Of a DNA stretch of 64,000 nucleotides, positions 12,403 to 57,598 are shown one piece after another. The first letter of the stretch is position 1. Each line of letters begins with the position of its first letter. Origin of the DNA: Pseudidiomarina indica (GTDB taxonomy: Bacteria > Pseudomonadota > Gammaproteobacteria > Enterobacterales > Alteromonadaceae); NCBI GenBank assembly GCA_029279945.1, contig JAJUHK010000007.1:1-64000 (forward strand), written 5' to 3'. The notes under the pieces were generated by a model. The model was not told the DNA's origin, ran no database searches, and worked only from the letters and a program-made list of their open reading frames with translations. The translations under genes and the position numbers were made by a program.

Positions 12403-13200
12403 TTAAGCTTCAGCCGCCACGTCGGCTTGTTTCTGTTGTTCCGCACGGCGAATAATTTCCCCCGCTAAAGCAAGGTAAGCCTTTGCACCTGCAGACGATT
12501 TATCGTAATACATGGCCGGTGAACCAAAACTTGGTGCTTCCGCTAAGCGAACATTTCGCGGAATAACCGTACGATATACTTTATCACCAAAATGATTTTT
12601 TAATTGTTCTGATACATCATTGGCTAATCGGTTACGTGGGTCATACATAGTACGCAGAATTCCCTCGATTGTTAAGCGTGGGTTCACCGCCTCTGCTAAT
12701 CGCTCAATCGTATCCATTAACGCGGTAAGACCCTCCAATGCAAAATACTCACATTGCATCGGGACTAAAATCGAATCTGCCGCTGCCATCGCATTTACGG
12801 TTAACATGCTCAATGATGGTGGACAATCAATGAAAATAAAATCGTAGTGATTCACGACTGGTTTTAGCGCATTAGCTAGGCGCTGCTCACGGGCAAATTC
12901 TTCCATGAGTTTAATATCAGCAGCAGTCGTATCACCGTTAGCGGCAACTAAATGGTATTTCCCATTGGTTTCTCGAATGATGACTTCTTCGATAGGTTTT
13001 TGCTCAATCAGTAACTCGTACGCCGTATTATCTACCGAATACTTATCGACACCACTTCCCATAGTGGCATTACCCTGCGGATCGAGATCAATCAGTAACA
13101 CTTTACGCCGTGTAGCAGCCATTGAAGCGGCTAAATTCACCGCTGTGGTGGTTTTGCCCACACCGCCTTTTTGATTAGCAATCGCTATAATTCTACCCAC
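12403..13200 (-). CDS. parA: chromosome-partitioning ATPase ParA
   Basis: The 265-residue Walker-type ATPase that moves ParB-bound origins. The deviant Walker A is KGGVGKTT at the extreme N-terminus (IIAIANQKGGVGKTTTAVNL), followed by LLIDLDPQGNAT and FIFIDCPPSL. Lies between rsmG (4 bp upstream) and parB. Confidence 0.97.
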   Translation of the reverse strand: MGRIIAIANQKGGVGKTTTAVNLAASMAATRRKVLLIDLDPQGNATMGSGVDKYSVDNTAYELLIEQKPIEEVIIRETNGKYHLVAANGDTTAADIKLMEEFAREQRLANALKPVVNHYDFIFIDCPPSLSMLTVNAMAAADSILVPMQCEYFALEGLTALMDTIERLAEAVNPRLTIEGILRTMYDPRNRLANDVSEQLKNHFGDKVYRTVIPRNVRLAEAPSFGSPAMYYDKSSAGAKAYLALAGEIIRRAEQQKQADVAAEA

Positions 13201-26743: not shown

Positions 26744-27063
26744 TGACAGATATTAAAACTACTGTTGGGATTGCCATGGACAGCCGCTCACTGCACCAGT
26801 TGAAAGTGCAAAGTCAGAACGATCCAAATGCCGCCGCGGGTGAAGCCGCACGTCAGTTTGAAGCGCTATTCATTCAACAAATGCTAACGACAATGCGCGC
26901 AGCCGGTGGTGAGTCCACCTTCTTTAAAAGCTCAGCCATGGATACGTACACCGCCATGCTCGATCAGCAGCTAGCCACTGAGATGGCTGGTCGTGGGATT
27001 GGTTTAGCGGAACAACTAACACAGCAATTACAACAATATACCACCCCCAAAAATAGCGAATAA
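26743..27063 (+). CDS. flgJ: rod-binding protein FlgJ, without the muramidase domain
   Basis: Only 106 residues. The rod-binding domain is complete (EAARQFEALFIQQMLTTMRAA, then FFKSSAMDTYTAMLDQQLATEM) and the protein stops soon after. Most gammaproteobacterial FlgJ proteins are ~300 residues with a C-terminal glucosaminidase that opens peptidoglycan for the rod. Single-domain FlgJ is known in other lineages, where a separate lytic enzyme does that job; none is encoded in this block. A sigma28 promoter for flgK follows at once, so there is no room for a lost domain. Confidence 0.92.
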   Translation: MTDIKTTVGIAMDSRSLHQLKVQSQNDPNAAAGEAARQFEALFIQQMLTTMRAAGGESTFFKSSAMDTYTAMLDQQLATEMAGRGIGLAEQLTQQLQQYTTPKNSE

Positions 27064-27067
27064 CTCC

Positions 27068-27094
27068 TTAAGTTCTTGCGGGTGTAGCCGATAA
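27068..27094 (+). promoter_or_regulatory. sigma28 (FliA) promoter of flgKL
   Basis: TTAAGTTC, 11 bases, GCCGATAA, located 28 bp before the flgK start. The perfect -10 and 11-base spacing make a FliA promoter likely, so flgKL can be late genes apart from the flgB operon. Confidence 0.9.
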
Positions 27095-27121
27095 CCAAGG
27101 TATCAGTATTAGGGAGCGAGT

Positions 27122-43098: not shown

Positions 43099-44805
43099 GT
43101 GAGCGACGCTAAGCAACCAACAAGCAACGACTTTACCCCGGTCAACAGTATCGTCGAGCTGGCCACTTACTTTGAGGCGCTGAGCCAGCCTGGCGTGGCA
43201 GTGCTCACCTTATTAGGGCCAGCAGAGAAGGGCCACCCCGTGGTACTGGTCGATCAGCTGGAAGAAGATTACCTACTGTTTGATCTCAGCGCCATTCGAG
43301 ATGTGGTTCCATCGCTGCGCCGTGGGGGTAAATTTATTCTGTCGGGGCATACGCCAGGAGGGTTAGTGCGTACTAACCCACTCACCGTACGAGAATTTTC
43401 CACGGTTGAGAATCGGTTATTCGCGTATGTGGATTGGCCGAAAGAAATATTCGTCAAACAGCGGCGAGCCGGTTTCCGCGCCAGCTTACGCATTGGCATG
43501 TACGTCGGAGTGACCTTACGCAGTACCGAAACCGACGATATGACGACCGTGGAACTGCATGGTGACTTAAAAGATTTGTCGGCCACTGGCTGTTTGGTTG
43601 AATTCTACATGCAAGATGGGGTTTCTCGGGTGCTGCCTGATTTAGCCACCGAAATTGAACTCTATTTCCCCAATGGCACCACCTTCCATGTTCAAGCTAA
43701 AGTGCGACACCTCAAAACCGACCACGATCGGCAAGTGTTGGCCGTTGGTTTTGAGTTTGTGGATATCAGTAAACTGCAAGAGCGAGAACTGTGGGGCTAC
43801 GTGCGGGAAATTGAACGGGAAGCCTCGCGTAACGCAGTGAGCGGTGACAAACGCAGCGAATCGGAATTGTTCCGTGTGCGCGATGAGGATGACCGCCGGT
43901 TAGGATGGCGCCACGCCCATGCCTACGCAACGCCGATGGCACGGCGCATGGCTCGGATAGCCGGTTACCTTGATAGCCAAATGGTGATGCTCAAACAAGG
44001 GCACCCGGTCAACTCGGTGCAACTGTCGCGGCATGCGGACAGAGTTCTCGATATGCTCGAAGATGACCGGCAAGAAACACTGTTTGCGGTGTACTGTATG
44101 CATCGCGAATCGCGGTGGGTAAAGCATGGTTTAGCCGTAGCCGTGCGGCTGGGTGATTTACTTCATGCAGTCAAGATGCCGCGTGATCTGCGCAAAGCGG
44201 TGGTGGCCGCAGCCATGGTGCATGACTTAGGGAAAGGCATGCTACCGCCAGAGCTATGGCGCGCCACGACGTTGAGCATGGATCTATATAAAGAGATGCA
44301 ATCGCACGTTGGTCTGTTGCTGGACAAGATGGACGACGTGAAATGGCTTTCAGATGTGGTGAAAAGCAATTTAATCGAACAGATCAATGAGCGCCTTAAC
44401 GGCTCAGGTTACCCTCACGCAGTAAAAGGTGACGAATTAGGCCAGCTCGCGCGCGCCGGAGCCGTGGTTGACGCCATTGATGCGATGCAACGGTCACGCC
44501 CTGATCGCCCAGCATTGTCAGCATTTGCCGCAGCGCGGTCACTGCAAACTAAATTAGATCAGTTCGATGAAGCTTGGGTAAGGCGCTATATTCAACATTT
44601 TGGCGTGCTGCCGATTGGGTCGCTGTTGCGGTTTGAGAAGGGAGAGCTTGCCTGGGTGGTGGGGCTGGATGCCAAGCGACGGGTTAATCGTGTGCGCATT
44701 ACACCCCATAAAGGGCCGCCCGATGATAAAATGGGTGAGCTCGTTGAGGGAGCAGAGTTAAAAGCATTGGGTCGTATTCGGGATGTTTTGGTGCCAGAAC
44801 ATTAA
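43099..44805 (+). CDS. YcgR-PilZ protein fused to an HD-GYP-type domain
   Basis: A 568-residue fusion from GTG 43099 with a GGAG site. Residues 1-~115 resemble the YcgR flagellar-brake N-domain. A PilZ domain follows with RRAGFR and DLSATG, giving the c-di-GMP-binding RxxxR and DxSxxG. From about residue 330 an HD-GYP-like domain has KHGLAVAVRL, VHDLGKG, SHVGLLL and ERLNGSGYP...DAIDAM. The two adjacent His that normally precede ER(L/W)DGSGYP are replaced (QINERLNGSGYP), so metal binding may be altered. Ordinary YcgR is ~240 residues without the HD-GYP part. Likely role: c-di-GMP-sensing motor brake, with or without phosphodiesterase activity (inference). Confidence 0.85.
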   Translation: MSDAKQPTSNDFTPVNSIVELATYFEALSQPGVAVLTLLGPAEKGHPVVLVDQLEEDYLLFDLSAIRDVVPSLRRGGKFILSGHTPGGLVRTNPLTVREFSTVENRLFAYVDWPKEIFVKQRRAGFRASLRIGMYVGVTLRSTETDDMTTVELHGDLKDLSATGCLVEFYMQDGVSRVLPDLATEIELYFPNGTTFHVQAKVRHLKTDHDRQVLAVGFEFVDISKLQERELWGYVREIEREASRNAVSGDKRSESELFRVRDEDDRRLGWRHAHAYATPMARRMARIAGYLDSQMVMLKQGHPVNSVQLSRHADRVLDMLEDDRQETLFAVYCMHRESRWVKHGLAVAVRLGDLLHAVKMPRDLRKAVVAAAMVHDLGKGMLPPELWRATTLSMDLYKEMQSHVGLLLDKMDDVKWLSDVVKSNLIEQINERLNGSGYPHAVKGDELGQLARAGAVVDAIDAMQRSRPDRPALSAFAAARSLQTKLDQFDEAWVRRYIQHFGVLPIGSLLRFEKGELAWVVGLDAKRRVNRVRITPHKGPPDDKMGELVEGAELKALGRIRDVLVPEH

Positions 44806-47058: not shown

Positions 47059-47867
47059 GTAGCATAACGCCATTACTGGACACACTTGTCCAGCACGTTG
47101 CGAAGCAACGCGCGGTGGTCGATTTATTGCCGCGCCATACCCTCCCTGTTACTCCTATTCCTAGCCCGGCATCAACCACAGAATTTAGCCAAGCTGGTCA
47201 ACAATTGCTGCGCTTAGCCACCCTCATTCAAACATTTCAACAACAACAACCGCCAACTCCCCCAACGGCTAACTTTATCCAAAGTACCGCACCTTTGTTA
47301 GGTGATGCGAAGCTTGATGTATTGACCTTGGTCAGCCGTTTACAACAGTTGGTGAAAAACTCTGGTATTTTCTATGAGTCAGCAGTCGCGCGCTGGGCGG
47401 CGGATAAGTTACCCTTCAGCGAGGTACGCCAGCAGCCACAAAACCTAGGCACTGGCGCAGCGCACGCCCCGAAGATTCAGCAAATCCTCGGACAACAGTT
47501 GGATCTATTGCAAACTGGGGTGCTGCGCATGGAGTTTGAGCTATGGCCACAGGCGGTGCTGCAGTGGTTGGTGCAACCAGATGTGCACCCGTTAGTGCAG
47601 CGTTGGCGTGATGAGCAGCGCCGTAAACAAGGTGAGCCGCCAGAGCCGCCGGCATGGCAAAGCGAATTAAAATTGACAGTGCCTGGGTTGGGTGAATTAC
47701 GGGCACAGATGCATTTGGGGGAGCAGCAATTAAACATGCAGCTGCAGTGTGCCGAACCTTGGGTCGAGCCAATACAACAAGCAGCGCCAACCTTGGTACA
47801 GCGCTTGCGGGATAACGTTGGCGTTAGTATCACTGAGATAACCGTGTTGAGGTTGCCGCATGAATGA
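47055..47867 (+). CDS. second FliK-like protein (hook-length-control C-domain)
   Basis: A 270-residue protein starting at TTG 47055, overlapping the fliT stop (TTGA). Gln/Pro-rich N-terminal half (FQQQQPPTPP). The C-terminal ~70 residues (LKLTVPGLGELRAQMHLGEQ, then PTLVQRLRDNVGVSITEITV) resemble the FliK hook domain with its beta-rich core and final helix. It overlaps the following FlhB-C-like gene by 8 bp, so the pair is translationally coupled. May tune substrate switching beside the true FliK at 34227 (inference). Confidence 0.7.
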   Translation: MSSITPLLDTLVQHVAKQRAVVDLLPRHTLPVTPIPSPASTTEFSQAGQQLLRLATLIQTFQQQQPPTPPTANFIQSTAPLLGDAKLDVLTLVSRLQQLVKNSGIFYESAVARWAADKLPFSEVRQQPQNLGTGAAHAPKIQQILGQQLDLLQTGVLRMEFELWPQAVLQWLVQPDVHPLVQRWRDEQRRKQGEPPEPPAWQSELKLTVPGLGELRAQMHLGEQQLNMQLQCAEPWVEPIQQAAPTLVQRLRDNVGVSITEITVLRLPHE

Positions 47868-48165
47868 AGCTAAGGTACCCGATAAGAAAGCTGTTGCGTT
47901 GCAATATCAAGCATTTGCGCCAGCCCCCCGCGTCATCGCAAAAGGGGATGGCTTAATAGCTACTAAAATAATAGAAAAAGCACAAGAGCACGGCATATTT
48001 ATTCATGAATCTCCTGATCTAGTCGATCTTTTATCGCAGATTGATCTTGATGATTATGTACCACAAACGCTCTGGTTAGTTGTTGCGGAATTGTTAATTT
48101 GGGCTAAGTCAATTGCCGAAAGTCCCCACGCCACCGTTTCCTCCCCACCAAAAGTTAACAAGTAA
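47860..48165 (+). CDS. FlhB C-terminal-domain-like protein
   Basis: A 101-residue protein matching only the cytosolic FlhB-CC fragment. AVALQY...PRVIAKGDGLIATKI corresponds to AVALQY...PKVIAKGTELVAQKI of the FlhB encoded at 51064. The NPTH autocleavage site of FlhB is absent; the protein begins where the cleaved fragment would start. Such free FlhB-C homologues are known in several bacteria, with roles still unclear. Coupled with the FliK-like gene upstream. Confidence 0.88.
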   Translation: MNEAKVPDKKAVALQYQAFAPAPRVIAKGDGLIATKIIEKAQEHGIFIHESPDLVDLLSQIDLDDYVPQTLWLVVAELLIWAKSIAESPHATVSSPPKVNK

Positions 48166-48300
48166 TCAACTTATCAGCATGATATGTGTCTCAAGAAAGT
48201 GCAATTTATTCATTGACTAGCTATGTTAAGATTTGCTAAAGATTAGGGGTATAACGAATAACTAATAATAAAAAATATAGTGCGCTGGAGATTTGCCCTC

Positions 48301-48600
48301 ATGAGTCAGAATAAAACTATTTCTGAATTACAGGAGCTTAATTTAAGTTACTTGTTGTTGGTTCAGAAATTGATCCTGGAAGATCGCGATATCGCAATTT
48401 TTCGCTTAAAAATTGATGAAGAGTTAGCTGAACTCATCGCTGGAATGTCTATTCGGGAACTCACCATATTAGCTCGCCAATCCCATAGTTTGTTACAACC
48501 AAATTTGGGTGATGTTAGCCAGTTGAAAGTGATACTAACGAATAAACGTGATACCGGCATGCAGGCAACTCATCTTGCCATGCATTTAGCCACCGCTTAA
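48301..48600 (+). CDS. flhD: flagellar transcriptional regulator FlhD
   Basis: A 99-residue subunit of the FlhD4C2 master activator of class II flagellar operons. ELNLSYLLLVQKLILEDRDI and AIFRLKIDEELAELIAGMS align well with enterobacterial FlhD. ATG 48301, with GGAG ten bases upstream, is preferred over an earlier GTG. A 135-bp gap separates it from the previous gene and should hold the class I promoter; no convincing -35/-10 pair could be fixed there. Confidence 0.92.
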   Translation: MSQNKTISELQELNLSYLLLVQKLILEDRDIAIFRLKIDEELAELIAGMSIRELTILARQSHSLLQPNLGDVSQLKVILTNKRDTGMQATHLAMHLATA

Positions 48601-48632: not shown

Positions 48633-49175
48633 ATGACTGCTAAAAAGTTACTTGATGAACTGAACCAGGTACAGCTTGCGATTGAGCTCATCGAGTTGGG
48701 AGCACGGTTGCAAGTACTGGAATCTGAAGTAAGTTTGAATCGTGGCCGGCTAGTCAGACTCTATAAGGAAGTTGCAGGCAAATCTCCGCCCAAGGGAATG
48801 TTGCCGTTTTCGACGGATTGGTTTATGACCTGGCAGCCAAACGTACATTCTTCATTCTTTTACAATATTTACGTGCGCCTTCACCAAGAACAAGGTCTTG
48901 AACGGCTGCAAGCGTTCATTAAAGCGTACCGTTTATACCAAGAACATATTCAAATCAGCGGCGAAGAAGAAGTTTTGGCATTGACCCGCGCGTGGACATT
49001 GCTACGGTTTTTTGAGAGCGACATGTTCCAACTATCTCGCTGTGTCAGTTGTGGCCTGAAATTCGTTAACCATGCCCACACGCCCGATCATGATTATGTG
49101 TGTGGTGTTTGCCAACCGCCATCGCGCGCCGGAAAACCGCTAAAGAAGACGACAAAAAAACAAAATGAAATTTAA
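48633..49175 (+). CDS. flhC: flagellar transcriptional regulator FlhC
   Basis: The 180-residue DNA-contacting partner of FlhD. The Cys4 zinc site is complete: CVSCGLKFV and, 15 residues on, CGVC. LVRLYKEVAGKSPPKGMLPF and ARAWTLLRFFESDM are typical. Follows flhD by 32 bp. Confidence 0.95.
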   Translation: MTAKKLLDELNQVQLAIELIELGARLQVLESEVSLNRGRLVRLYKEVAGKSPPKGMLPFSTDWFMTWQPNVHSSFFYNIYVRLHQEQGLERLQAFIKAYRLYQEHIQISGEEEVLALTRAWTLLRFFESDMFQLSRCVSCGLKFVNHAHTPDHDYVCGVCQPPSRAGKPLKKTTKKQNEI

Positions 49176-50980: not shown

Positions 50981-51063
50981 CCCCTTATTCTCCCCTTCAC
51001 TGCCATTTGCAATGAGGCATACTTGAGCTCAGTGTCCCAAGGTGTCACTTGATTACTGTAGCC

Positions 51064-52206
51064 ATGGCAGAGAATCAGACAAGCGATCAGGAAAAAACAG
51101 AAGAACCCACGGCGCGAAGGCTGGAAAAGTCGCGCGAAGAAGGTCAGGTTGCGCGTTCACGTGAGCTGACCACTTTTGTGATCTTGTTCGGTGGGGTATT
51201 GATGCTTTGGTCGCTGGGGAGCACACTTTATAACAACCTCGGATTAATGATGGAGCAGGCATTTTCTTTTGAACGCCTGCAAATATCTGAACCCGGCCCC
51301 ATGCTACAAAATGTGCTAGAGCTTGGCCAAGCGGCACTGATCAGCTTGTTACCCTTGTTCGCTGTGATGCTGCTGTTAGCGCTAGTTGCACCAGCGTTGT
51401 TGGGAGGCTGGGTGGTCTCCACTAAATCAATGGCGCCGAAGTTTGAAAAGCTCAACCCCATCAAAGGCCTCAAACGCATCTTTTCTACCCAAGCGCTCGC
51501 CGAGCTAGGAAAAGCTATTGCTAAAACGGTACTGGTTGGTTCCGTATTGACGCTATTTTTGTGGCAGCAACGCCAGTCGTTCATGCGCTTGATGAGCTTA
51601 GAAGTCAAGCAAGCACTGGGTGAAGCTATGGGGCTTGCTGCGTTAGCCTGTTTGCTGATGATTTTAACGCTGATTGTGGTGGTGGCATTTGATGTGCCGT
51701 ATCAAATGTTTACCCACAAGAAAAAGCTGCGCATGTCGAAAGAAGAGGTGAAGCGCGAGCATAAAGAAACTGAAGGCGACCCTTTTGTGAAGGGTAAGAT
51801 CCGCCAGCAGCAGCAAGCAATGGCACGCCGCCGGATGATGGCTGACGTGCCCAAAGCCGATGTCATTATTACCAACCCGACCCACTATGCGGTGGCTCTG
51901 CAATATGATGAACATGGCATGGGCGCACCCAAAGTAATTGCCAAAGGTACGGAGTTGGTCGCACAGAAAATTCGTGAACTTGGCGATGAACACCAGGTTC
52001 CCCGCTTAGAAGCACCTGCATTAGCTCGGGCATTGTATGCGCATGTTGATTTAGGGCATGAAATTCCAGCGGCATTGTATACAGCTGTCGCTGAAGTACT
52101 CGCTTGGGCGTTCCAGTTAAAACGAGCTCGCCAAGGTATTGCGGTGATGCCGCCCACCCCCAAAGATATTGAAGTACCTAAGGATTACGAGGTAGCTGCT
52201 CGATGA
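51064..52206 (+). CDS. flhB: flagellar export switch protein FlhB
   Basis: A 380-residue membrane protein that sets export specificity. N-terminal DQEKTEEPTARRLEKSREEG, four membrane helices, and the autocleavage motif in VIITNPTHYAVALQY near residue 270. Start is ATG 51064 by family fit; a TTG at 51049 has the better AAGG site. Its stop overlaps flhA (ATGA). Confidence 0.96.
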   Translation: MAENQTSDQEKTEEPTARRLEKSREEGQVARSRELTTFVILFGGVLMLWSLGSTLYNNLGLMMEQAFSFERLQISEPGPMLQNVLELGQAALISLLPLFAVMLLLALVAPALLGGWVVSTKSMAPKFEKLNPIKGLKRIFSTQALAELGKAIAKTVLVGSVLTLFLWQQRQSFMRLMSLEVKQALGEAMGLAALACLLMILTLIVVVAFDVPYQMFTHKKKLRMSKEEVKREHKETEGDPFVKGKIRQQQQAMARRRMMADVPKADVIITNPTHYAVALQYDEHGMGAPKVIAKGTELVAQKIRELGDEHQVPRLEAPALARALYAHVDLGHEIPAALYTAVAEVLAWAFQLKRARQGIAVMPPTPKDIEVPKDYEVAAR

Positions 52207-54287
52207 AATTAAGCATGACGGGATTAGCAAAATCATTACAAGGCGCCCAGCTGCAGTTGCTGGTGGGGCCGATACTGATCTTAGTCATTTTGCTGATGAT
52301 GGTGGTACCGCTACCGCCTTTTGCACTGGATTTTTTCTTTACCTTTAACATCGCGCTTTCCTTGATGGTGCTACTGGTGGCAATGTTCACTGAAAAGCCA
52401 CTTGAGTTTGCTGCGTTCCCAGCGGTGTTGCTGTTTTCTACACTGCTGCGGTTGTCACTCAACGTTGCATCCACGCGTGTCGTGCTGATGGAAGGTCACA
52501 ACGGTGGTGATGCCGCTGGTAAAGTGATTGAAGCTTTCGGCCAGTTCTTAGTTGGCGGTAACTTCGCAGTCGGCTTAGTCGTGTTCTTAATTTTGGTGGT
52601 GATTAACTTTATGGTTATCACTAAGGGTGCAGGGCGGATCGCAGAAGTTGGTGCGCGTTTTACCCTCGATGCGATGCCCGGTAAGCAAATGGCCATTGAT
52701 GCGGATTTGAACGCAGGCTTGATCGGTGAAGATGAGGCACGCCGCCGCCGCCAAGATGTGGCGCAAGAAGCCGAATTCTACGGCGCCATGGACGGTGCGA
52801 GTAAGTTCGTTCGTGGTGACGCAGTAGCCGGTATGGTGATCATGGTGGTCAACATCATTGGTGGGTTACTCATTGGCGTCATGCAGCATGATATGAGTGC
52901 CGGGGATGCTGCTCACACTTATATTTTGCTGACCATCGGTGATGGTCTCGTCGCGCAAATTCCCGCACTGATTATTTCCACCGCAGCAGGTGTGACAGTG
53001 TCACGGGTTAACACTGAACAAGATGTCGGCCAGCAGTTGGTCAAGCAGTTATTCGTTAGCCCCAAAGTGTTGTATTTAGCCGCTGGCGTGATTGGCCTTC
53101 TGGGTTTAATTCCAGGTATGCCTAACTTTGTTTTCCTGTTGTTTACGACGTTATTAGCAAGCTTTGCTTGGTATTTGCAGAAGTACCAAGCAAAACAGGC
53201 TGCCGCACAACGCGCCGAAGAAGCCGTGGTACCAGCACCATCATTCAGTGCCCCAGAAGCGAGTTGGAACGATGTGCAATTGGTGGATACCTTGGGCATG
53301 GAAGTCGGCCATCGGTTGATTAGCTTAGTGGATGACAATCAACAGGGTGAATTGCTCGGACGCATTAAGAGTGTGCGGAAAAAATTTGCGCAAGAAGTTG
53401 GGTTCTTGCCGCCTGTGGTACATATTCGCGATAACCTTGAGCTATCACCGAACACCTATACCATTACCTTGAAAGGTGGAGAAATTGGTCGCGCCGAGAT
53501 TTACCCTGAACGTTGGTTAGCGATTAATCCAGGTCAGGTGACGGGAGAAATTGAAGGTATCGATACCACCGACCCAGCCTTTGGCTTACCAGCGAAATGG
53601 ATTCCACAAGATCAACGTGAGCACGCCCAGATTTACGGTTATACCGTGGTGGATGCAAGTACCGTAGTGGCTACCCATTTAAACCATTTACTGCAACGCT
53701 ACGCAGCAGAACTGCTGGGCCGCCAAGAAGTACAGCAATTAGTGGATAAACTCAGCCAAGAAAACAAAGCCTTGGTGGAAGATGTGGTGCCGAAATGCGT
53801 GACCTTGACGACCTTGCAGCGGGTCTTGCAAAATTTATTGGATGAAGACGTTTCAATTCGTGACTTACGCACCATATTTGATACGCTAGCGGAGTTTGAA
53901 GGCCAGCAAGTGGATGCCCATGAGTTAACCGCTCGAGTACGTATCGCGCTTGGTCGCAATATTGTTCAGAAATGCTTCGGTGGGGCGCGCGAATTGAAAG
54001 TGATTGGCTTAGATGCAGGTCTTGAACAGATGCTGAGCCAAGCACTGCAACACAATAGCTCATTGGAGCCAGGGCTGGCGGTGACGATTCAAGAACAAGC
54101 GCAGCAGGCCATGCACCATGCAGAAACGATGGGCTTACCGCCAGTGCTGGTGGTTCCGCATGCATTACGGCCCTTACTGTCACACTTCTTGCGCCGCCAG
54201 TTGCGTGATTTAGTGGTTTTGTCACAAGCAGAAATTCCAGATGATCGGACTATTCAAGTGGTGAGTATGATCGGAGGCCAAGCATGA
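52203..54287 (+). CDS. flhA: flagellar export gate protein FlhA
   Basis: The 694-residue export gate. About eight membrane helices, the conserved cytosolic loop GAGRIAEVGARFTLDAMPGKQ, and a large C-terminal platform domain from ~residue 340. Overlaps both flhB and flhF by ATGA, so the three are coupled. Confidence 0.97.
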   Translation: MKLSMTGLAKSLQGAQLQLLVGPILILVILLMMVVPLPPFALDFFFTFNIALSLMVLLVAMFTEKPLEFAAFPAVLLFSTLLRLSLNVASTRVVLMEGHNGGDAAGKVIEAFGQFLVGGNFAVGLVVFLILVVINFMVITKGAGRIAEVGARFTLDAMPGKQMAIDADLNAGLIGEDEARRRRQDVAQEAEFYGAMDGASKFVRGDAVAGMVIMVVNIIGGLLIGVMQHDMSAGDAAHTYILLTIGDGLVAQIPALIISTAAGVTVSRVNTEQDVGQQLVKQLFVSPKVLYLAAGVIGLLGLIPGMPNFVFLLFTTLLASFAWYLQKYQAKQAAAQRAEEAVVPAPSFSAPEASWNDVQLVDTLGMEVGHRLISLVDDNQQGELLGRIKSVRKKFAQEVGFLPPVVHIRDNLELSPNTYTITLKGGEIGRAEIYPERWLAINPGQVTGEIEGIDTTDPAFGLPAKWIPQDQREHAQIYGYTVVDASTVVATHLNHLLQRYAAELLGRQEVQQLVDKLSQENKALVEDVVPKCVTLTTLQRVLQNLLDEDVSIRDLRTIFDTLAEFEGQQVDAHELTARVRIALGRNIVQKCFGGARELKVIGLDAGLEQMLSQALQHNSSLEPGLAVTIQEQAQQAMHHAETMGLPPVLVVPHALRPLLSHFLRRQLRDLVVLSQAEIPDDRTIQVVSMIGGQA

Positions 54288-56416
54288 GCATTCAACGCTT
54301 CACCGCCAACAGTCAGCGGCAGGCACTACGCCTCGTGCGCGACGCACTTGGTGACGATGCGGTGATTATTACTTCGCGTAAGCAGGGTGATAGCGTCGAG
54401 ATTTTTGCGATGCGTGAAGCCGATCTTGATCAGCTAGAAAGCCAAACTACAGTGCCAGCTACGCCAGCGGTGCCAACCGAGCCAGCCACACAACCTATGG
54501 CGCAAGCATTAGAACAACTGCTGGCAGATATGCAGCAGATGCGTAATTTACTGCAGCAACAGCAGGGCGAACCCGTTACTGAAGATAACCGGCAGCGACT
54601 ATACCGCCACCTACGCAGTGCTGATTTCAGTGATGAGTTGGCGCAACAATATTCCGATCTGCTACCGGCGCATTTAAACCACCGCTCAACGCCTTACAGC
54701 GACGCCCAAACATGGCTGAAGCAACAATTAGCGGCGCGTATCGCCCACCAAGGTGAATTATCGCCGAATGAATGGCAATTACTCCAACACCAAGGTGTGA
54801 TTGCGTTGATTGGCCCAACCGGGGTAGGGAAAACGACGACAACGGCGAAATTAGCTGCGAATTACGTGATGCAGCATGGCAACGATAGTTTGTTGTTGGT
54901 GACCACCGACAGTTATCGGATAGGGGCACAACAACAACTTGCCATTTATGCCGAATTGCTTGATGTAGAAATGCATGCTCTGGCGGATGGGGAAGGATTA
55001 GAAACACTGGCTGGGAAAATGCAGGGCAAACGCTTGGTGTTGGTAGATACCGTGGGCATGAGCCAGCGCGATCAACGTCTTGCGCAAAAAATCGCAGCGT
55101 TAGCGAGCGAGTCTTTCCGTGATAAAACACGCTTAGTATTGCTGTTAAATGCCGCATCACAGCCTGCAACGCTCGATGAGGTGGCCCGAATTTATCAAGG
55201 CATTGGTCAAGAGAACGGGCTGACCGTGCACGATTGTATTTTGACGAAATTAGATGAAGCAAACCGCGTCGGTGCTGTCGTCGATACCATTATTCGCTAT
55301 CAGTTGCAGGTATTAGCGGTGTCAGTAGGACAACGTGTTCCGGAAGATTTACACGCCCCCAATATTGAGCAGTTGATCGACGATGGGTTAGCAGGGGGAA
55401 CCGCAACCGCGCCTTGGATTGTACCAAACGAGGCTGCACCTAGCGCTGACGGCGTCATTCCTAAGCAAGTGTTTGCCCACGGTAAAGTCATTCAAGCCGT
55501 GATGCAGACATTGCAACTGCGGGTGAGTGGCTTCCGTAGTTTTACCCAATGGTGGCTTGAACCGAGTTTATCCATGAAACCCTTCGTGGCGACTAGCTTT
55601 GCCGACCTGGAGCCCGCAGTAATTCGCTGGGGTGCGCCACAGCCCCTGCAAGGGTGGCAGCATTTAACCCCACACTTAGCTTTATCTGCAGAAGCTTTGG
55701 TGCAGTTACCGCCGGTATTACAAGGCAGTGCACAACCCGATGCTAATCAAACAGCGACACATTTATTTGATTATCTGCCTGAGTTGGCGGTGTTAACAGA
55801 GTTAGATCAACAGCAATGCGGTTGGTTGGCGCTGATGAACGTGAACCATCGGGTATATAGCGACGAGCGCCAGCTGTCAGTACAGCAGTGTATGGCACAG
55901 CAACAGATCCCGCTGGGTAAGCAAACTGTACTGTACCGAGGTGAACGGCGGCGCTTAGAGCTTTACATTGCAGCTGCGCAACTTACGCCCGCGGGCACGA
56001 CCTATCAACTTATCCATGGTGCCTTGCATGGTGGTGCTGGGAAAAGTCCCCCGGTACAGCGCCGCTATTGGCTTGTGGATGGCTCGTGCAGCGCTGAGCA
56101 AGTGGTCGCACGTGTTCAAATGATGCTGCAAACTGAAGAATACGCACGTTTAACAAGGCTCGCGTGGCGCCAACTGAGCAAACTATGGGCGCATTTAAAC
56201 GGCGAAGAATTACACAGTATAGCAGCCGTAATAGCGGCGACAGTATTACACATTGAATACCACCCAAGTGCAGAATTTGCCTCGCTACGGGGTGATTTGT
56301 TGAGTTTGAGCGGTAAGCGTGGGCGTGTGCAGGGCGATAAACTGGTTCCTGCGTTAATTCACGTGTTGAATGCTTACGCGTCACTGCAAGCAGCAGGACG
56401 ACAAGTAGAGTGGTGA
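54284..56416 (+). CDS. flhF: flagellar SRP-like GTPase FlhF with a long C-terminal extension
   Basis: FlhF sets flagellar position and number. N-terminal basic domain (RFTANSQRQALRLVRDALGDDAVI). The SRP-type NG domain spans ~residues 165-375: LIGPTGVGKTTTTAKLAANY, TTDSYRIGAQQQL, LVDTVGMSQRDQRL, LTKLDEANRVGAVVDTIIRY and SVGQRVPEDLHAPN. Usual FlhF ends about here (400-500 residues). This one continues for about 340 residues with no recognised motif, Gln/Leu/Trp-rich, to 710 residues. The extension is an uninterrupted frame, not a second gene with its own site. It lies beside a reduced FlhG. Confidence 0.93.
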   Translation: MSIQRFTANSQRQALRLVRDALGDDAVIITSRKQGDSVEIFAMREADLDQLESQTTVPATPAVPTEPATQPMAQALEQLLADMQQMRNLLQQQQGEPVTEDNRQRLYRHLRSADFSDELAQQYSDLLPAHLNHRSTPYSDAQTWLKQQLAARIAHQGELSPNEWQLLQHQGVIALIGPTGVGKTTTTAKLAANYVMQHGNDSLLLVTTDSYRIGAQQQLAIYAELLDVEMHALADGEGLETLAGKMQGKRLVLVDTVGMSQRDQRLAQKIAALASESFRDKTRLVLLLNAASQPATLDEVARIYQGIGQENGLTVHDCILTKLDEANRVGAVVDTIIRYQLQVLAVSVGQRVPEDLHAPNIEQLIDDGLAGGTATAPWIVPNEAAPSADGVIPKQVFAHGKVIQAVMQTLQLRVSGFRSFTQWWLEPSLSMKPFVATSFADLEPAVIRWGAPQPLQGWQHLTPHLALSAEALVQLPPVLQGSAQPDANQTATHLFDYLPELAVLTELDQQQCGWLALMNVNHRVYSDERQLSVQQCMAQQQIPLGKQTVLYRGERRRLELYIAAAQLTPAGTTYQLIHGALHGGAGKSPPVQRRYWLVDGSCSAEQVVARVQMMLQTEEYARLTRLAWRQLSKLWAHLNGEELHSIAAVIAATVLHIEYHPSAEFASLRGDLLSLSGKRGRVQGDKLVPALIHVLNAYASLQAAGRQVEW

Positions 56417-56426
56417 AGGAAGTAGT

Positions 56427-56894
56427 ATGACAGATCAAGCAGCCGGCCTGCGCCAGTGGGCCGCGAAAAGTAAATCGGTAGAATCGACACCACTACAGGT
56501 TGATAGCGAGCTTGAGCATGTAGTAGTGTTAGGGCTACCAGCGTTAGATAAAACACAAGCATTACGTGCTGTTGAAGTATTTCAGCGGTGGGCTGAACAA
56601 GGTAAAAAATGGGTCGGTGATCCGAACCGCTGGCGCATTATCCCAGTGGCGTCAGATTACCCCGATTTAGCTGAATTAGTGAAACCCTACCCACGATGGG
56701 CATTATGGATTGACCAAGATTTAGATAGTTTTCAGCGTGCTTATGAGGCTTTAAAAGCTGTTCATCGTGCACAGGGCCCGAAGCGAATGATTGCACTGAA
56801 CCCGCCGCTGCAATCACGGCGTGGGCTATTAAGTCATGTGCAGCAAGTAGCTAAAGCATATTTTGATATCGATCTCTTGGTATTTTCAGGCTGA
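56427..56894 (+). CDS. reduced FlhG-like protein lacking the ATPase P-loop
   Basis: A 155-residue protein in the flhG position (flhF-flhG-fliA). It begins MTDQAAGLRQWA; DQAxGLR is the N-terminal FlhG motif that activates the FlhF GTPase. The C-terminal ~55 residues (DSFQRAYEALKAVHRAQGPK, MIALNP, HVQQVAKAYFDIDLLVFSG) resemble the FlhG segment DAYALIKxLxRxxG...NMVxS...FLDVxLxxxG. The MinD-type Walker A (KGGxGKT) and switch regions are missing, and the whole is about half the usual ~290 residues. It seems to keep FlhF contact while losing the nucleotide switch. AAGGAAG site 6 bases upstream. Confidence 0.8.
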   Translation: MTDQAAGLRQWAAKSKSVESTPLQVDSELEHVVVLGLPALDKTQALRAVEVFQRWAEQGKKWVGDPNRWRIIPVASDYPDLAELVKPYPRWALWIDQDLDSFQRAYEALKAVHRAQGPKRMIALNPPLQSRRGLLSHVQQVAKAYFDIDLLVFSG

Positions 56895-56899
56895 GAATC

Positions 56900-57598
56900 A
56901 TGTATACAGCAGATGGAAAAATAAATCGTAACAGCGTCATCGAGCAATATCTGCCGTTAGTACGCCGCCAAGCATTTAGCCTCAAGGTGCGACTGCCTGC
57001 TGGGGTGGACGTGGACGATTTAATTCAAGCTGGTGTGGAAGGGCTATTGAGCTGTGTTGACCGCTTTGATGCCGAATCAGGTGTCGCATTCTCAACCTAT
57101 GCACACCAACGTATTCGTGGCGCCATGATTGATGAGCTGCGCAGTCGCGATTGGTTGCCTCGTAGTGTACGTCGCAGTGGTCGCGAGCTGGAATCGACCT
57201 TACGACGGCTAGAACAAGAGCTCGGACGCCCGCCAGAAGAGCGCGAAGTAGCGGCCGCACTGGATATGAGCCTCGCCGAATACCAACAGTTATTGCTCGA
57301 CACTAACAATGGTTTAGTGCTTTCCTACGATGACGTGTTGACCGATAACCCCAACCTCGAAACCAGCGATGACGAAACCCCAGCACCTGAAGCACAAGTA
57401 AGTAATGATCAGCTAAAACAGCTACTGATGGCAGCAATTGATGCCCTGCCAGAGCGGGAAAAGTTGGTGATGACCCTGTATTACCAAGAAGAATTGAATC
57501 TAAAAGAAATTGGTGCCGTGTTAGATGTGACAGAGTCACGTGTTTCCCAGTTACACAGCCAAGCTATCAAGCGTATTCGCGCCCGCGTAGCAACCTAA
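56900..57598 (+). CDS. fliA: flagellar sigma factor 28 FliA
   Basis: A 232-residue sigma28. VRRQAFSLKVRLPAGVDVDD, DLIQAGVEGLL, the region-2 STYAHQRIRGAMIDELRSRD and the region-4 HTH LKEIGAVLDVTESRVSQLHS are all present. It should read the six promoters annotated here and be held by FlgM. 5 bp after the FlhG-like gene. Confidence 0.97.
   Translation: MYTADGKINRNSVIEQYLPLVRRQAFSLKVRLPAGVDVDDLIQAGVEGLLSCVDRFDAESGVAFSTYAHQRIRGAMIDELRSRDWLPRSVRRSGRELESTLRRLEQELGRPPEEREVAAALDMSLAEYQQLLLDTNNGLVLSYDDVLTDNPNLETSDDETPAPEAQVSNDQLKQLLMAAIDALPEREKLVMTLYYQEELNLKEIGAVLDVTESRVSQLHSQAIKRIRARVAT

Follow-up and report, generated by a model that had tools for sequence, protein, structure and literature searches.

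Whether a flagellar system can operate with an FlhG that has lost its ATP site is the question raised by a small gene in a 64,000-nucleotide stretch of a Pseudidiomarina genome (contig JAJUHK010000007.1; the window, hereafter, is this stretch at its full length). Current models place the ATP cycle of FlhG at the centre of counting and placing flagella. The gene, here called mini-flhG, is an ATG open reading frame (ORF) of 155 codons at 56427..56894 on the forward strand, which also carries the flhD, flhC, flhB, flhA, flhF and fliA located below, and encodes 155 amino acids (aa). It lies between a long flhF and fliA, with gaps of 10 bases from the flhF stop and 5 bases to the fliA ATG, in agreement with the initial annotation, which had placed a 155-residue protein in the flhG position. 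The motif DQAAGLR, also correctly located by that annotation at residues 3-9 (56433..56453), is read in the translation as D3-Q4-A5-A6-G7-L8-R9 within a predicted helix (residues 4-16, low confidence), and a reduced alpha/beta core without P-loop or switches occupies residues 28-155 (56508..56891). Judged from sequence, the protein is probably a reduced FlhG that acts as an ATP-independent activator of FlhF, and that possibly docks on the C-ring.

The loss of the ATP site extends to every homologue compared. These make up 58 distinct sequences out of 72, drawn from 57 loci and the 15 rows of alignment A1; sequences were fetched for 30 of the 148 matches in the halomonad family. ORFs were chosen by the DQA motif, a filter that lost none of the titled-record and halomonad loci, since an ORF was present in 53 of 53, and the two loci without a mini-FlhG ORF both belong to genus g311. 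Neither KGGxGK[ST] nor GxxxxGK[ST] occurs in any of the 58 proteins, and a search by pattern only found no switch-II-like sequence in them; a bare GK[ST] is present in four and a loose switch-I pattern in two, neither of which is the window protein. The absence of P-loop and switches noted in the initial annotation for the window protein is borne out by these patterns. Among full FlhGs KGGxGK[ST] is present in 44 of 47, the three exceptions being betaproteobacterial; 30 of the 44 canonical sequences had been extracted by the P-loop pattern, and none of the 30 loci fetched failed it. ATP-dependent dimerisation of mini-FlhG is unlikely because the site for it is absent. A C-terminal amphipathic membrane helix is excluded in the window protein, where only 3 residues follow the last predicted strand (149-152); in relatives 2-17 residues follow it (55 of 58 rows listed), with 11-17 in 17 of these. 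Counted from the motif, the proteins are 135-233 residues long, much of the variation lying in the linker.

What is retained of FlhG besides the motif is not a tail, as had been supposed, but the half that follows switch II, to which residues ~83-153 (56673..56885) are homologous. When the core without its helix was compared by hhalign with all 47 FlhGs the score was 39.2 (best of 200 column shuffles, 20.5), with the three betaproteobacterial FlhGs 39.3 (best of 200 shuffles, 18.8) and with the 44 canonical FlhGs 29.8 (best of 200 shuffles, 22.0). The match is in the expected register and well above reversed columns too, and four other window proteins, a weaker control as they are single sequences, reached at most 16.3. 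An earlier comparison with a 15-row profile was unconvincing (3.9%), and the 58-row version with controls was used instead. The window protein draws no convincing match from Pfam, NCBIfam or PHROGs, and no FlhG or MinD family match was found in Pfam or NCBIfam for any of the 17 members of alignment A3, one of which gave a single weak NCBIfam match, to DprA. A sequence search of solved structures with mini-FlhG returned nothing credible; FleN and FlhG are among its best structural matches, where many alpha/beta folds score alike. By profile comparison the core is a remnant of FlhG, with modest structural backing for the fold.

The C-ring-binding positions of FlhG map to this retained half. In Geobacillus FlhG they are K177, R207 (also printed as 277) and F215 according to the available text of PMC12327844; the numbering was obtained through the printed 4rz2 alignment with an offset of 8 inferred from the letters, and the positions were transferred to mini-FlhG through the profile comparison. 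They correspond to K110 of mini-FlhG (K in 39/58), H137 (N in 53/58) and Y145 (Y or F in 48/58). Docking on the C-ring is partly supported as a hypothesis because the mapped positions fall within the half that is kept.

The gene is under purifying selection. Residues D3, Q4, A5, L8, R9, G59 and A142 are invariant in all 58 distinct sequences, the tryptophans W62 and W69 never vary in the sequences that have them, and W91 and W94 hardly vary; alignment A1, whose 15 rows were chosen without the motif, has the same motif invariance. The core is conserved beyond the helix, and nowhere is invariance higher than in the activator motif. In six close pairs, chosen by hand and with one sequence shared by two of them, dN/dS is 0.03-0.18, codons 1-14 carry no replacement in any pair, and the linker is the most variable part in several. 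Low dN/dS together with the unreplaced first codons identifies a working gene. A frameshifted or broken gene was also considered and rejected, no internal stop being present among the matches listed from the genus and the halomonad family.

Nor is mini-flhG a local oddity, as the description of a re-engineered placement system in the initial annotation had implied; the homologues with the same gap that it called for were found across Idiomarinaceae and halomonads, in many salt-loving relatives. Among 59 relatives, 15 of the 26 that belong to the genus have the gene and none of the 33 others. Ten of the 11 genus members without it (three of them <90% complete) give no FlhF match stronger than that of other SRP GTPases, and the eleventh, G020, has a normal 454-aa FlhF and a 292-aa FlhG. 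The nearest named relative, P. indica, shares 89% identity in mini-FlhG and 96% in FlhA. A set of 23 titled loci, for which one of two search patterns contained the motif, comes from Pseudidiomarina, Idiomarina loihiensis SN11, Aliidiomarina, Onishia, Halomonas salinarum, Litchfieldella, Chromohalobacter and an unclassified gammaproteobacterial metagenome-assembled genome. Mini-flhG lies directly downstream of flhF in the window and in seven other loci inspected. When genomes were drawn from the whole class, 2 of 370 carried mini-flhG, one of them the genome studied here; no relatives were found on plasmids.

The other of these two genomes belongs to a family taken to be Halomonadaceae, which holds Litchfieldella (100% FlhF match) and in which 148 of 250 genomes, from 12 of the 24 genera, carry mini-flhG; FlhF is found in 191 of the 250, including all 148 with mini-FlhG. 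Canonical FlhG was not seen in any of the 250 at E<=1e-40, a threshold that G020 passes at 1.8e-165 and below which a full FlhG of betaproteobacterial type might fall with a canonical profile; a profile that includes betaproteobacterial FlhGs gave 4.0e-19 and 2.3e-19 at best in two genomes of the family. FlhF without detected mini-FlhG occurs in 43 genomes, from which 12 loci in seven of eight genera were read. Genera g232 and g307 (25 genomes, two loci read each) have an ORF of 135-168 aa in the flhG place, with DQASGLR or DQAAGLR near its start and the rest too diverged for the profile. In g311 (three genomes, two read) a long FlhF is immediately followed by an flhE-like gene, matched by Pfam FlhE in the one scanned, and no flhG; in g306, g308, g324 and g326 (14 genomes; six loci, L118-L123) a short FlhF is followed directly by fliA, again with no flhG. 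The remaining genome of the 43, G587, was left out; its flhF is at the end of a contig.

A full FlhG elsewhere in the genome, by which the initial annotation would have its reading refuted, was not found. The genome is a 2.1 Mb draft in 28 contigs, 99.96% complete, in which PF10609 had three matches, PF13614 three, PF01656 six and a 14-row FlhG profile three, the FlhG profile giving 1.7e-10 at best. We take these matches, partly by recognition, to be Soj, Mrp/ApbC, a Wzc-like kinase, BioD, Ffh and a 550-aa ORF that is perhaps PyrG; Soj is presumably the product of window positions 12403-13200, beside putative gidA, gidB and parB. Neither full FlhG nor MinD was seen with the four profiles, which rules out such a protein in the draft as searched, an absence that is not absolute because the genome is in 28 contigs. 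With this FlhG profile G020, also a member of the genus, scores 1.8e-165, and the 14 further genomes of the genus that carry mini-FlhG score no better than ~1e-11. As a separate observation, a MinD-like protein is not visible in this and other Idiomarinaceae genomes, and the four halomonad genomes searched have a MinD-level match of ~5e-18 to 1e-19.

How such a protein might work can be pieced together from the available literature on full FlhG. A glutamine of the helix stimulates FlhF (PMC12826062, PMC12327844), and in B. subtilis FlhG the change Q8A resembles deletion of flhG (PMC12826062, PMC12327844, PMC11236974). Binding to C-ring proteins is independent of nucleotide, and contact with FlrA is confined to the dimer with ATP bound (PMC12826062, PMC12327844, PMC11236974); GpsB contact and membrane binding are also tied to the ATP-dependent dimer (PMC12826062, PMC11236974, PMC12327844). 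In Vibrio alginolyticus, Walker A changes in FlhG impair polar localisation and leave cells hyperflagellated, and a change that blocks hydrolysis and not ATP binding has little effect (PMC7226244). Mini-FlhG keeps the FlhF-activating helix and part of the C-ring-binding region and lacks what the ATP dimer needs, and it is on these grounds that an ATP-independent activator of FlhF is proposed. Loss of the site would very probably have taken away ATP-driven dimerisation and membrane cycling, leaving a helix that would stimulate GTP hydrolysis by FlhF whenever the two proteins meet. The remaining domain could tie this stimulation to assembly of the C-ring, using the face with which full FlhG holds FliY or FliM independently of nucleotide. 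In polar gammaproteobacteria an ATP-gated arm extends to the master regulator FlrA/FleQ and to the cell pole; it could have been dropped here because the flagellar system runs on FlhDC.

Against this reading of a reduced FlhG stand four others. The activator helix might have been fused to an unrelated small alpha/beta domain, so that the core would not be a shrunken FlhG at all. The lack of an FlhG or MinD match in Pfam and NCBIfam for all 17 members, the want of a credible hit by sequence in solved structures, the many alpha/beta folds that score alike, and the restriction of the FlhG profile match to residues ~83-153 all speak for such a fusion, but it is made unlikely by a match that is in register and well above the 200 column shuffles and the reversed columns, by the lower scores of the four other window proteins, and by the presence of FleN and FlhG among the best structural matches. 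A decaying relic on its way to loss, with little function, is highly unlikely: related systems without flhG do exist, in two g311 genomes and beside flhA of E. coli K-12, and the core is very diverged in the four loci of g232 and g307, yet the dN/dS values and the lack of internal stops among the matches listed argue for a gene in use. That the ATP switch comes from a full FlhG or MinD encoded elsewhere, with mini-FlhG as an accessory, is scarcely credible; the 28-contig draft and the MinD-level match in the four halomonad genomes searched leave it some room, but the four profiles found none in the genome itself, and the strong match seen in G020 has no counterpart in any of the 14 further mini-FlhG genomes of its genus.

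The fourth alternative concerns the long FlhF. The flhF of the window (54284..56416) encodes 710 aa with the SRP-type GTPase motifs G1-G5 intact, and its C-terminal extension, residues 371-710 (55394..56413), has homologues in halomonads and, by way of intermediates, in Cupriavidus. Mini-FlhG could be a dedicated regulator of this enlarged FlhF, as an inhibitor, an anchor or a partner of the extension, for which stimulation of the GTPase would be minor. FlhF accompanies mini-FlhG in all 148 halomonad genomes, the 27 FlhFs measured are all long (697-783 aa), and conservation of the core goes beyond the helix, as such a role would suggest; the reading is nevertheless improbable, because Cupriavidus and two g311 genomes have the extension without mini-FlhG and because invariance in the protein peaks at the activator motif. 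The extension is common to Idiomarinaceae, halomonads and g311 (94.5-99.9% probability), and is linked to Cupriavidus through g311 (95%), less through halomonads (24%) and hardly at all directly from Idiomarinaceae (0.3%). By sequence it has no convincing match among solved structures, and in g311 FlhF (L116, L117) the G3 (DTVGVGQRD) and G5 motifs are altered. The initial annotation had tied the enlarged FlhF to the small FlhG, a connection that does not hold, since the extension is also found with a full-length FlhG in Cupriavidus and with no flhG in the two g311 genomes; the idea that the long FlhF compensates for a small FlhG was rejected for the same reason. What stands of that interpretation is a reduced FlhG that keeps the activating motif, has lost the switch and has no full FlhG found beside it, and what falls is local re-engineering and the tie to FlhF.

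The lineage of the flagellar system gives the reduced FlhG a context. The window cluster holds flhD (48280..48600; PF05247, 7.5e-21) and flhC (48633..49175; PF05280, 5.8e-80), and its FlhA, encoded by flhA (52203..54287, recognised by sequence), groups with those of E. coli and betaproteobacteria, the FlhDC-type system. In a tree of 32 FlhA rows, rooted at the midpoint for drawing only, the 10 canonical rows, among them G020 from the genus itself, are separated (100/100) from the window, E. coli, the three betaproteobacteria and every one of the 18 mini-FlhG rows; the mini-FlhG rows form one group (99/95), and the long branches of E. coli, B. glumae and G020 were flagged. In four halomonad loci (L056, L059, L061 and L065, the last two checked with Pfam) the gene after mini-flhG resembles flhE, a different gene takes that place in L112-L115 and Idiomarinaceae, and in E. 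coli K-12 flhE directly follows flhA, with neither flhF nor flhG beside flhA. The FlhGs of Burkholderia glumae, Cupriavidus metallidurans and Cupriavidus sp. EM10 (L124-L126) are full-length without the Walker A lysines.

These forms fit a stepwise loss, for which an order of events is proposed. It is possible, and we put it forward tentatively, that the FlhDC lineage preserves stages in the dismantling of the FlhF/FlhG switch: a Walker-less full FlhG in betaproteobacteria, then a helix with a C-ring-docking half in halomonads and Idiomarinaceae, then loss of flhG in g311 and of both genes in E. coli, with FlhF at the middle stage turned over by a C-ring-gated, ATP-independent activator. If this is so, flagellar placement at that stage works without a MinD-type ATPase of its own. 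The 2025 review, in the part available, holds that enterics took over a betaproteobacterial flagellar system from which flhF and flhG were not included or were soon lost, and leaves open how enterics came to lack FlhF and FlhG (PMC12826062), a question on which these systems bear. In B. glumae, which has multiple polar flagella, FlhF is needed for normal placement, and flhBAFG and fliA are co-transcribed, according to the accessible text of PMC3885665. P. piscicola, which has mini-FlhG, is described in the source excerpt as motile by a polar flagellum, and flagellation in Pseudidiomarina is given, in the descriptions available, as single polar, peritrichous or none.

Several other features of the cluster are recorded here. 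Upstream of flhA lies flhB (51049..52206, recognised by position and sequence), and downstream of mini-flhG is fliA (56900..57598, with Pfam sigma-70 regions 2, 3 and 4, and by position). A small protein encoded upstream of flhDC (window 47860-48165) resembles the C-terminal part of FlhB. Between putative fliC and fliD, window 43099-44805 encodes a 568-aa PilZ and HD protein, possibly linked to c-di-GMP, and the interval between putative flgI and flgK (26744-27121, 378 bases) is too short for the usual flgJ. Close to the flagellar cluster (window 4441-57598) are putative parB, soj, gidB and gidA genes and a putative atp operon, neighbours that point to the origin side of the chromosome.

The novelty claimed by the initial annotation has to be narrowed. 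Stimulation of FlhF by the helix is already known from the available text of PMC12826062 and PMC12327844, and the novelty lies in an FlhG that occurs naturally with no ATP site; a full-text literature search, covering titles and abstract openings with preprints and most subscription papers outside it, gave no published description of mini-FlhG among the matches listed. The functions of FlhG have here been separated by nature, the FlhF-activating motif and part of the C-ring-binding half being kept and the ATP site gone, and in a genome without a visible MinD-type substitute it becomes possible to ask which of the tasks of FlhG need ATP. Halomonas, one of the genera with mini-flhG, includes organisms that can be worked with in the laboratory.

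Compared with known systems, mini-FlhG shares with FlhG, FleN and YlxH its place after flhF, the DQAxxLR motif, the homologous half after switch II and the partner FlhF, and differs from them in having neither Walker A nor switch II and no name in Pfam or NCBIfam. The betaproteobacterial FlhGs are akin to it through the same FlhDC-type lineage by FlhA, the retained DQAxxLR and the lost Walker A lysines, although the three examined are still full length at 270-274 aa. The FlhG helix is reported to replace functionally the SRP RNA that acts on SRP GTPases, as the available part of PMC12826062 has it, the difference being that the latter is an RNA and serves other GTPases. The flhBAE region of E. 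coli falls on the same side of the FlhA tree as the mini-FlhG systems and differs from them in having no flhF or flhG.
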